DNA from: Halobaculum marinum
Lineage (GTDB): Archaea; Halobacteriota; Halobacteria; Halobacteriales; Haloferacaceae
DNA: 64,000 nucleotides
Assembly: GCF_029338555.1 (NCBI RefSeq)
Contig: NZ_CP119989.1
Coordinates: 682,001 to 746,000 of the forward strand
Direction: 5' to 3'
Below the pieces are notes generated by a model. That model was not told the DNA's origin, searched no databases, and was given only the letters and a program-made list of their open reading frames with translations. Made by a program: the position numbers and the translations under genes. This document shows, one piece after another, positions 50,383 through 52,342 of the stretch. How positions within the stretch are numbered: position 1 is the stretch's first letter; each line of letters begins with the position of its first letter.

Positions 50383-50389
50383 TTTTATA
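50383..50389 (+). promoter_or_regulatory. TATA box of the upstream ORF and tfb
   Basis: TTTTATA predicts a transcript start near 50412, a few bases before the upstream ORF ATG at 50417 and 130 bases before the tfb start. No other promoter-like element lies between, so the mRNA should carry both frames. Confidence 0.7.
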
Positions 50390-50416: not shown

Positions 50417-50542
50417 ATGCCGGATACGTATCGCGGGCCCGAGACTGGTGACTCTCGGCGGCCCGCACCAGACCACAGTGGTACGACACTGTCGAACACG
50501 AGCGGCGCTCCGCCGGACGGGCGCACGAAGCGAGCCCGCTAG
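50417..50542 (+). CDS. 41-codon upstream ORF coupled to tfb
   Basis: A short frame (MPDTYRGPETGDSRRPAPDH and 21 more, ending RTKRAR) whose stop TAG at 50540-50542 overlaps the GTG start of tfb by one base. Its ATG sits at the predicted 5' end of the mRNA. In the tfb frame the nearest upstream stop is at 50449-50451 with no ATG or GTG in between, so tfb must start at 50542 and is likely translated by reinitiation after this ORF. The peptide is Pro/Arg/Gly-rich and resembles nothing known; its role may be regulatory. Confidence 0.55.
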   Translation: MPDTYRGPETGDSRRPAPDHSGTTLSNTSGAPPDGRTKRAR

Positions 50543-51489
50543 TGACCACGACGAGACGCGAGCGCGACCGGTCAGCGAAGCAGGAGGCGGACACAGTCGA
50601 CCCCGACGAGGTCGACGAGGCCGACCTCGTCCGCACCGACGACGGTGAGTTGATCCACGAGCCCACGGGGCTCATCATCGAGGAGGACAACGTCGACCGT
50701 GGTCCCGAGTGGCGCGCGTTCAACGCCACCGAGCGCGACCGGAAGAGCCGCGTCGGCTCGCCGATGACCCAGACGATGCACGACAAGGGTCTCACCACCA
50801 GCATCGACTGGCGCAACCGTGACGCGAGCGGTCGACAGCTGTCGGCGGAGAAGCGCTCCCGGATGGAGCGCCTTCGCACGTGGCAAGAGCGTATCCGCAC
50901 ACAAGACGCCGGCGAGCGCAACCTCCAGTTCGCGCTCTCGGAGATCGAACGGATGTCCTCGGCGCAGGGCGTCCCCAAGTCTGTCCGCGAAGTCGCGTCG
51001 ATGATCTACCGGCGCGCCCTCGACGAAGACCTCATCCGCGGCCGGTCTATCGAGGCGATGGCGACGGCGAGCCTCTACGCTGGCTGTCGCCAGGAGGGGA
51101 TCCCGCGCTCGCTCGACGACTTCGTCGGCGTCGCTCGCGTCGAGCGCCGTGAGATCGCCCGCGCGTACCGCTACATCTCGGGCGAACTCAAACTGGCGCT
51201 GAAGCCGGTCGACCCCGCCGAGCACGTCCCCCGCTTCTGCTCGAAACTCGGGCTCCCGGAGGACGTGAAGCGGCGTGCGACCCGGATCGTCGACGAGACG
51301 ACCGTCGACGGCCTCCACGCCGGCAAGTCGCCGACGGGGTATGCCGCCGCGGCGATCTACCTCGCGTCGATGCTGTCCGACGACAAGCGGACCCAGTCGG
51401 AGATCGCAGACGTGGCCGACGTGACGGTCGTCACGGTGCGCAACCGCTACAAAGAGCAGATGGAAGCGATCGACCCCGGCTCGCTGTAG
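50542..51489 (+). CDS. tfb: Transcription factor B (TFB) paralogue lacking zinc-ribbon cysteines
   Basis: A 315-residue TFB, the archaeal TFIIB that bridges TBP-bound promoters and RNA polymerase. The B-finger/linker DRGPEWRAF, the KGLTTSIDW region and both cyclin repeats (AGERNLQFALSEIERMSSAQ; VRRATRIV-type second repeat ending VVTVRNRYKEQMEAI) are complete. The zinc-ribbon place (about residues 20-48: PDEVDEADLVRTDDGELIHE, then PTGLII) keeps the spacing but all four Cys are replaced (around D/E, then H39 and T42). GTG start overlapping an upstream ORF. Haloarchaea carry several TFBs; this looks like a specialised one. Confidence 0.93.
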   Translation: MTTTRRERDRSAKQEADTVDPDEVDEADLVRTDDGELIHEPTGLIIEEDNVDRGPEWRAFNATERDRKSRVGSPMTQTMHDKGLTTSIDWRNRDASGRQLSAEKRSRMERLRTWQERIRTQDAGERNLQFALSEIERMSSAQGVPKSVREVASMIYRRALDEDLIRGRSIEAMATASLYAGCRQEGIPRSLDDFVGVARVERREIARAYRYISGELKLALKPVDPAEHVPRFCSKLGLPEDVKRRATRIVDETTVDGLHAGKSPTGYAAAAIYLASMLSDDKRTQSEIADVADVTVVTVRNRYKEQMEAIDPGSL

Positions 51490-51556: not shown

Positions 51557-52342
51557 ATGGTGCTGGACGCCCAGTTTCGGACGCTCGCGTCCGCGGTTCC
51601 CTCGGACCGCCGCCTCGCGGTGGTTCGACGCGACGGCGGCACGCCGCTCGACTCGATGTTGCGCCGACTGTTCGCCGACCAACCGGTGTCTGTCAGCACC
51701 GACGCCACCGCCGGCACGACGACCGGCGACGACGACGTGGCTGTGCTCGTCGAGGACGGCGAGGTGCTCGCGACCTCGCCGCTGGCGGCGCTGGAACGTG
51801 CGATCCTCCTCGTCAACTCCGACCTCTACAAGACGGGAACGCTTCGGCTCGCCGACGCCGACCTCCCGTCGGTGTTGACCGGGCTGGCGGACGTGCCGTT
51901 CCGGCTCCGCGGCTATCCGCTCGCACACAAGGAGAAACTGCTCCTCATCGCGATGAGCCGCCAGATCGAACTCCGAGCGGCACGCGCCGACGCCGGCGAA
52001 CTCCACGCCTCCTTCCAACAGCTCTCGCGGATCGACGACGAGGTCGGCACTCGACGCACGTACGAACACCTCGCCGCCACCGACGTCGACGTCCACGTGT
52101 ACGGCGAACCCGACTGGAACCCCGAGCGCCCTCTCGACGTGACCGCCCACGCCGGCTACGGCGCCGGCTACAGCGACTCGTGGTTCGTCGTGTTCGACCC
52201 GCCCGCCGACGCGGTGGGGCCGCACACGACGCCCGTCGGACTACTCGCGCTGGAGGCGGAGCCGCGCGTGTGGGAGGGGATCTGGACGTTCCGCCCCGAC
52301 GCGGTCGCGGAGTTGGCGTCGGTCATCCGACGGAAGCTGTAG
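51557..52342 (+). CDS. DICT-domain sensory protein
   Basis: A 261-residue soluble protein. The N-terminal half has LAVVRRDGGTPLDSMLRRLF and a YKTGTLRLADADLPSVL helix region; the C-terminal half matches the DICT sensory domain (LLLIAMSRQIELRA; DVDVHVYGEPDW; DSWFVVFDP; EGIWTFRPDAV). DICT domains often accompany bacteriophytochrome or nucleotide-cyclase signalling; here it stands alone, as usual in haloarchaea. It begins 67 bases after tfb. Signal unknown. Confidence 0.8.
   Translation: MVLDAQFRTLASAVPSDRRLAVVRRDGGTPLDSMLRRLFADQPVSVSTDATAGTTTGDDDVAVLVEDGEVLATSPLAALERAILLVNSDLYKTGTLRLADADLPSVLTGLADVPFRLRGYPLAHKEKLLLIAMSRQIELRAARADAGELHASFQQLSRIDDEVGTRRTYEHLAATDVDVHVYGEPDWNPERPLDVTAHAGYGAGYSDSWFVVFDPPADAVGPHTTPVGLLALEAEPRVWEGIWTFRPDAVAELASVIRRKL

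Follow-up and report, generated by a model that had tools for sequence, protein, structure and literature searches.

The 64,000-nucleotide stretch of Halobaculum marinum DNA that we analyzed (hereafter, the window) contains on its forward strand a gene (positions 50542–51489; GTG start, TAG stop) that encodes a TFB of 315 amino acids. Genes for Pus10 and RNase HII lie upstream on the opposite strand, and a gene for a DICT sensory-domain protein follows directly downstream (51557–52342, forward strand). The TFB matches the TFIIB cyclin repeats in two stretches (Pfam PF00382, E-value 2e-45) and scores 394 bits against the NCBIfam model NF001658, above the curated cut-off of 384; its two cyclin-fold TFIIB repeats and its match to the TFB model place it within the archaeal TFB/TFIIB line of descent. 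The repeats (residues 121–309; 50902–51468), which bind TBP, BRE, and DNA, align end to end with chain B of 1d3u, the TFB core of P. woesei. Ahead of them, the B-reader and B-linker (residues 53–112; approximately 50698–50877) align without gaps to those of paralogues with a cysteine-bearing ribbon and are under strong purifying selection. The protein outside the ribbon is thus intact, as a reading of the sequence alone had proposed. Five further TFBs are encoded in the genome, each with an ordinary CxxC...CxxC ribbon (Cys+), and Cys+ and Cys-free paralogues therefore occur together in this genome, as in systems with zinc-independent paralogues.

The distinguishing part of the protein is the remnant of its N-terminal zinc ribbon (residues 19–49; 50596–50688), which was delimited by alignment to the Cys+ paralogues, reads DPDEVDEADLVRTDDGELIHEPTGLIIEED, and contains no cysteine. 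The canonical ribbon with two CxxC pairs is absent: the match to PF08271 (Zn_Ribbon_TF) scores 17.6 bits (cut-off, 29) over no more than the last 18 model positions, and no cysteine precedes residue 182. In this alignment, the third and fourth ligand positions are occupied by His39 and Thr42, in agreement with the sequence-only reading, and the first ligand pair falls on residues 21–25 (PDEVD), where the alignment is ambiguous by one residue and no cysteine is found. The motif GELxHExTGLI of Cys-free TFBs retains the spacing of GExxCxxCGLV. A residual metal site centered on His39 was considered, but this idea is weakened by the aspartate found at that position in three of the five Cys-free TFBs from outside the Haloferacaceae.

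The missing cysteines are not restored by a different gene start or reading frame. An in-frame upstream extension carrying a CxxC pair had been named as a possible objection; the thirty open codons upstream of the GTG in the TFB frame include neither a start codon nor a cysteine, and the complete 315-residue product is confirmed as a TFB paralogue with a Cys-free ribbon remnant. We found no frameshift that would bring a cysteine back, and the only other notable upstream frame, a leader open reading frame (ORF) of 41 codons on the same strand (50417–50542), also lacks cysteine. The stop codon of this ORF overlaps the TFB start (TAGTG in the window, GTGA in relatives, where the ORF has 41–43 codons), and both the frame and the overlap are kept in all six orthologues. 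Mismatches among these six are spread equally over the three codon positions, so the leader is not constrained at the protein level; the retention of its frame but not of its amino acids suggests translational coupling to the TFB. Additionally, a putative TATA-like element (TTTATA, 50384–50389, forward strand) lies 28–33 nt upstream of the leader ATG, and orthologues have a TTATA- or TTATG-like block in its place. Sequencing error is excluded, because 55 further distinct TFBs have the same kind of ribbon.

Although the sequence-only reading treated the gene as one divergent paralogue, the Cys-free ribbon is shared by almost the entire Haloferacaceae family and sits at a syntenic locus. A search with a profile of the Cys-free ribbon detected it in 153 of 170 Haloferacaceae genomes, representing 25 of 28 genera. 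Named carriers include Halohasta salina, Halogeometricum limi, and four Halobellus species. This family-wide loss, together with orthologues of the window gene in five other Halobaculum genomes (87–95 per cent identity), disposes of the concern that cysteines were lost at random in a single strain. A second, standard Cys-free TFB, approximately 69 per cent identical to the one in the window, is present in nine of eleven Halobaculum genomes.

Outside the Haloferacaceae, the same profile, applied to a 392-genome draw of the order, yielded Cys-free ribbons in only five genomes (G158, G196, G373, G415, and G402). True cases in this draw had E-values no higher than 1e-12 and were clearly separated from the remaining matches, of which the best lay at approximately 4e-7; those of the latter class that we examined were ordinary Cys+ ribbons. 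Outside-family genes (L176 and L185) occupy other genomic places and stand beside Cys+ TFBs, which suggests that these cases were probably acquired by transfer. At the third ligand position, three of the five outside-family proteins (loci L249–L253) have Asp instead of His. Genome G196 also has a Cys+ type TFB (L075; G196:C1:217600–219500) whose ribbon is apparently out of frame with its core and which is perhaps a pseudogene. The five lower-ranked plasmid TFBs that we examined are all Cys+. A viral origin of the Cys-free TFB was considered and rejected, as no relatives were found on viral contigs and matches in a phage collection are just 23–29 per cent identical. TFB-like proteins of Halorubrum tailed viruses OP630574–OP630576, two of them annotated only as hypothetical, are approximately 29 per cent identical to the window's protein.

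In most genera examined, the standard Cys-free TFB gene lies between the RNase HI gene (rnhA) and nreA, with genes for an inorganic pyrophosphatase and a PadR-like protein upstream. In genomes of three other families (L180 in f4, L181 in f7, and L184 in f12), these pyrophosphatase, PadR-like, and rnhA genes are followed downstream by a Cys+ TFB. These Cys+ TFBs are positional orthologues, and the metal site was therefore lost at that locus, probably once and most simply near the base of the Haloferacaceae. In an unconstrained tree of the core, from which the ribbon was left out, Cys-free TFBs do not form one clade and nine changes are needed; this tree is weakly resolved, probably because of gene conversion in the core (see below). 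A single Cys-free clade is not rejected (approximately unbiased [AU] test; P-value = 0.115, or 0.355 without three long rows), and the shared locus and shared new motif favor one origin. In H. volcanii, RNase H1 and NreA are encoded by HVO_0732 and HVO_0734, respectively (PMC7776575), and by synteny HVO_0733 should therefore be the Cys-free TFB.

To characterize selection on the remnant, we compared 56 distinct Cys-free and 84 distinct Cys+ TFB sequences. None of the 56 has a ribbon cysteine, whereas the zinc site is intact in all 84. Four residues (in window numbering, Thr32, Glu40, Thr42, and Gly43) are the same in every sequence of the Cys-free set, with Asp25, Arg31, His39, and Glu47 nearly invariant. 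Since the columns of Thr32 and Glu40 are variable in Cys+ TFBs, old constraints have been replaced by new ones. The share of acidic residues rises from 26 per cent to 39 per cent. Pairwise dN/dS (NG86) of the remnant is 0.17 in the window type, 0.09 in the standard type of Halobaculum, and 0.17 across the family, compared to 0.03 for the more slowly evolving Cys+ ribbon. In the reader and linker, the ratio is 0.03–0.07 in all groups (0.04–0.07 in Cys-free groups and 0.04 in the window type). The Cys-free remnant is under purifying selection that is weaker than that on the zinc ribbon; its dN/dS values and new invariant residues support the earlier view that this is not simple decay.

Fold predictions are compatible with a metal-free ribbon. 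Specifically, AlphaFold2, run with eight sequences, places three short strands in the ribbon, with low confidence in the full-length model (pLDDT of 44–53); modeled as a fragment, the ribbon reaches a pLDDT of approximately 82 for fragment residues 11–30. Among PDB structures, the fragment model is closest to 1pft, the N-terminal zinc ribbon of P. furiosus TFB, but the E-value of 0.77 is not significant.

These observations are best explained, in our view, by a functional TFB whose ribbon is metal-free, with a probability of roughly 0.5. Among the functions that the sequence-only reading had entertained, work without zinc thus becomes the leading one. Under this explanation, the zinc ribbon would have turned metal-free, probably in the ancestor of Haloferacaceae; its three-stranded fold would probably be held by ordinary side-chain contacts rather than by zinc; the ribbon may still touch the polymerase dock; and the factor would deliver RNA polymerase to TBP-bound promoters through its intact reader, linker, and cyclin domains, allowing transcription to start. 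The presence of the trait in 153 of 170 genomes, the emergence of invariant residues in 56 sequences without ribbon cysteines, the low dN/dS, the retained ribbon spacing, and the three modeled strands with 1pft as their best match all point in this direction. So does a precedent: TFE-alpha/beta of H. volcanii, which belongs to the same archaeal family, is likewise a basal initiation factor that has lost metal-binding cysteines, and it continues to function although its Fe-S cluster is gone and its zinc site is degraded (PMC5861453). On the other hand, recruitment of polymerase is normally the task of the ribbon, which acts through the dock domain (PMC7289017), and every Cys+ TFB examined has kept its zinc site; the ribbon of the full-length model is of low confidence and the match to 1pft is not significant; and the remnant evolves faster than its Cys+ counterpart.

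The parallel with TFE has its limits, as TFE-alpha is another factor and keeps one cysteine and weak zinc binding (PMC5861453). With a typed, consensus-like TFE sequence as the search query, we found that the TFE-alpha zinc ribbon (loci L206–L233) has four cysteines in most genera, three in several, Halobaculum among them, and one in genera g3, g7, and g13, a patchy loss of metal ligands in a further initiation factor. A degenerate TFE-alpha ribbon as a co-evolving partner of the Cys-free TFB was considered and set aside, because the two are not co-extensive: strong loss is limited to g3, g7, and g13 and does not extend to Halobaculum.

The Cys-free TFB shares its reader, linker, two cyclin repeats, overall length, and spacing with the canonical haloarchaeal TFB, represented in H. 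marinum by the Cys+ paralogue L002. In eight Halobaculum genomes, we compared the standard Cys-free gene to its L002-type Cys+ paralogue (loci L012–L019 versus L020–L029). Within a genome, the two differ at 0.17–0.39 of four-fold sites, which in all eight genomes is less than the median between Cys-free orthologues of different species; random re-pairing of genomes reached as low a value in 1 of 20000 trials. Along the genes (three genomes), DNA identity is approximately 0.5 across the ribbon, rises to 0.92–0.99 from GPEW, falls to 0.74–0.87 in the mid-core, and then returns to 0.90–1.0. The window-type gene of these genomes is not comparably close to the Cys+ copy (0.51–0.59 of sites differ, although 0.37 in G004). 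A codon bias shared within each genome does not fit this mosaic, nor the lack of similarity in the window-type gene. The cores of the standard Cys-free and Cys+ TFBs have thus been repeatedly homogenized by patchy gene conversion, which spares a mid-core stretch, while the ribbon difference was maintained.

The conversion ends at the ribbon boundary, which, along with the new invariant residues and the increased acidity, would also fit an acidic tail that is no longer a ribbon and instead binds another partner controlling when the TFB acts. However, the second half of the ribbon keeps its hydrophobic and glycine framework, and we found no conserved partner gene that adjoins the TFB at the rnhA–nreA locus as well as at the locus in the window; we regard such repurposing as improbable.

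In the compared twins, the BRE-reading helix of the standard Cys-free TFB is identical to that of the Cys+ TFB (L038 differs by one residue before the helix). With the same helix and converted cores, the twins are expected to encounter each other at shared promoters. The Cys-free protein could then be a competitor that binds TBP and BRE as its Cys+ twin does, docks polymerase poorly because the metal site of the recruiting ribbon is gone, and represses or tunes shared promoters. A competitor was also among the proposals of the sequence-only reading, and the identical helices lend it some support. We nevertheless find this unlikely: strong selection acts on the reader and linker, which function solely within polymerase and would be of no use to a protein that merely blocks promoters, and the remnant, far from drifting, has acquired invariant residues. 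The tightly kept reader and linker, the retained ribbon framework, and the new invariants favor a working initiation factor over both the competitor and the repurposed tail.

The copy in the window departs from the standard type in position, rate, and promoter-reading helix. It shows no gene conversion, and its core is only approximately 70 per cent identical to those of its paralogues. Its C-terminal BRE-reading helix-turn-helix (51391–51468, forward strand) is changed throughout the window-type clade (TQSEIADVADVTVVTVRNRYKEQMEA in the window versus TQREVADVAQVTEVTIRNRYQEQIEA in the standard Cys-free and Cys+ twins), with the helix VADVTVVTVRNRYKEQ in place of VAQVTEVTIRNRYQEQ. At the rnhA–nreA interval, two Halobaculum genomes have no standard copy: H. 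marinum (G000:C1:99173–99220) and H. litoreum (G004:C1:1999504–1999528), in which the matches flanking the empty site are 46 bp and 23 bp apart, respectively, where the reference has a TFB. The moved copy is therefore the only Cys-free TFB of H. marinum. It is a relocated, fast-evolving Halobaculum version with an altered BRE helix, and that helix probably directs it to promoters of its own; it would thus not compete with the Cys+ TFB at exactly the same sites. The fast evolution of this copy and the loss of the ancestral one from two genomes could be taken to indicate slow decay of a dispensable TFB. Yet dN/dS is far below 1 in every part of the protein, the gene is retained in 90 per cent of Haloferacaceae, and the Halobaculum orthologues are 87–95 per cent conserved, all of which makes such decay, already disfavored above, very improbable.

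A special case of the metal-free TFB would be a twin that sustains transcription under zinc scarcity or thiol oxidation. Cys+ and Cys-free copies with near-identical cores in one genome resemble the paralogue pairs described for bacterial ribosomal proteins (PMC5912738, PMC9825181), and haloarchaeal proteomes trend toward fewer cysteines (PMC5861453). The bacterial zinc-independent paralogues are repressed by a zinc-sensing regulator; the Cys-free TFB is not known to be under zinc control, and our search turned up nothing on its regulation. In the neighborhoods examined, we saw no zinc-uptake or redox gene beside a Cys-free TFB, and we hold this special role to be doubtful.

Expansion of TFBs in haloarchaea has been described (PMC2121645, PMC4230888), and the passages searched in these two papers do not mention a Cys-free ribbon. 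Our literature search by topic, with most subscription papers outside its reach, returned no description of a Cys-free TFB. In Sulfolobus TFB3, the N-terminal ribbon is kept and C-terminal parts are missing, which is the reverse of the Cys-free TFB. TFB3 is likewise a TFB paralogue of unusual build and not a simple replacement of the main TFB (PMC7289017). Relative to the canonical L002-type TFB, with which the standard Cys-free genes share the BRE helix and exchange core sequence, the Cys-free TFBs lack the metal ligands and have invariant residues of their own, and the copy in the window has a changed BRE helix as well.

Taken as a whole, the genomic patterns tentatively suggest a possible two-ribbon mode of initiation in Haloferacaceae, in which zinc and metal-free TFBs would read the same promoters, their cores being converted and their ribbons kept apart by selection; output would be set by which ribbon, the zinc-dependent one or the one independent of zinc and thiols, can engage polymerase, and the moved Halobaculum copy would add a new BRE preference. 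A Cys-free TFB beside a Cys+ twin with a near-identical core amounts to a natural ribbon swap, through which the contribution of the zinc site to initiation can be tested directly. If HVO_0733 is the Cys-free TFB, this test would be possible in the model archaeon H. volcanii.
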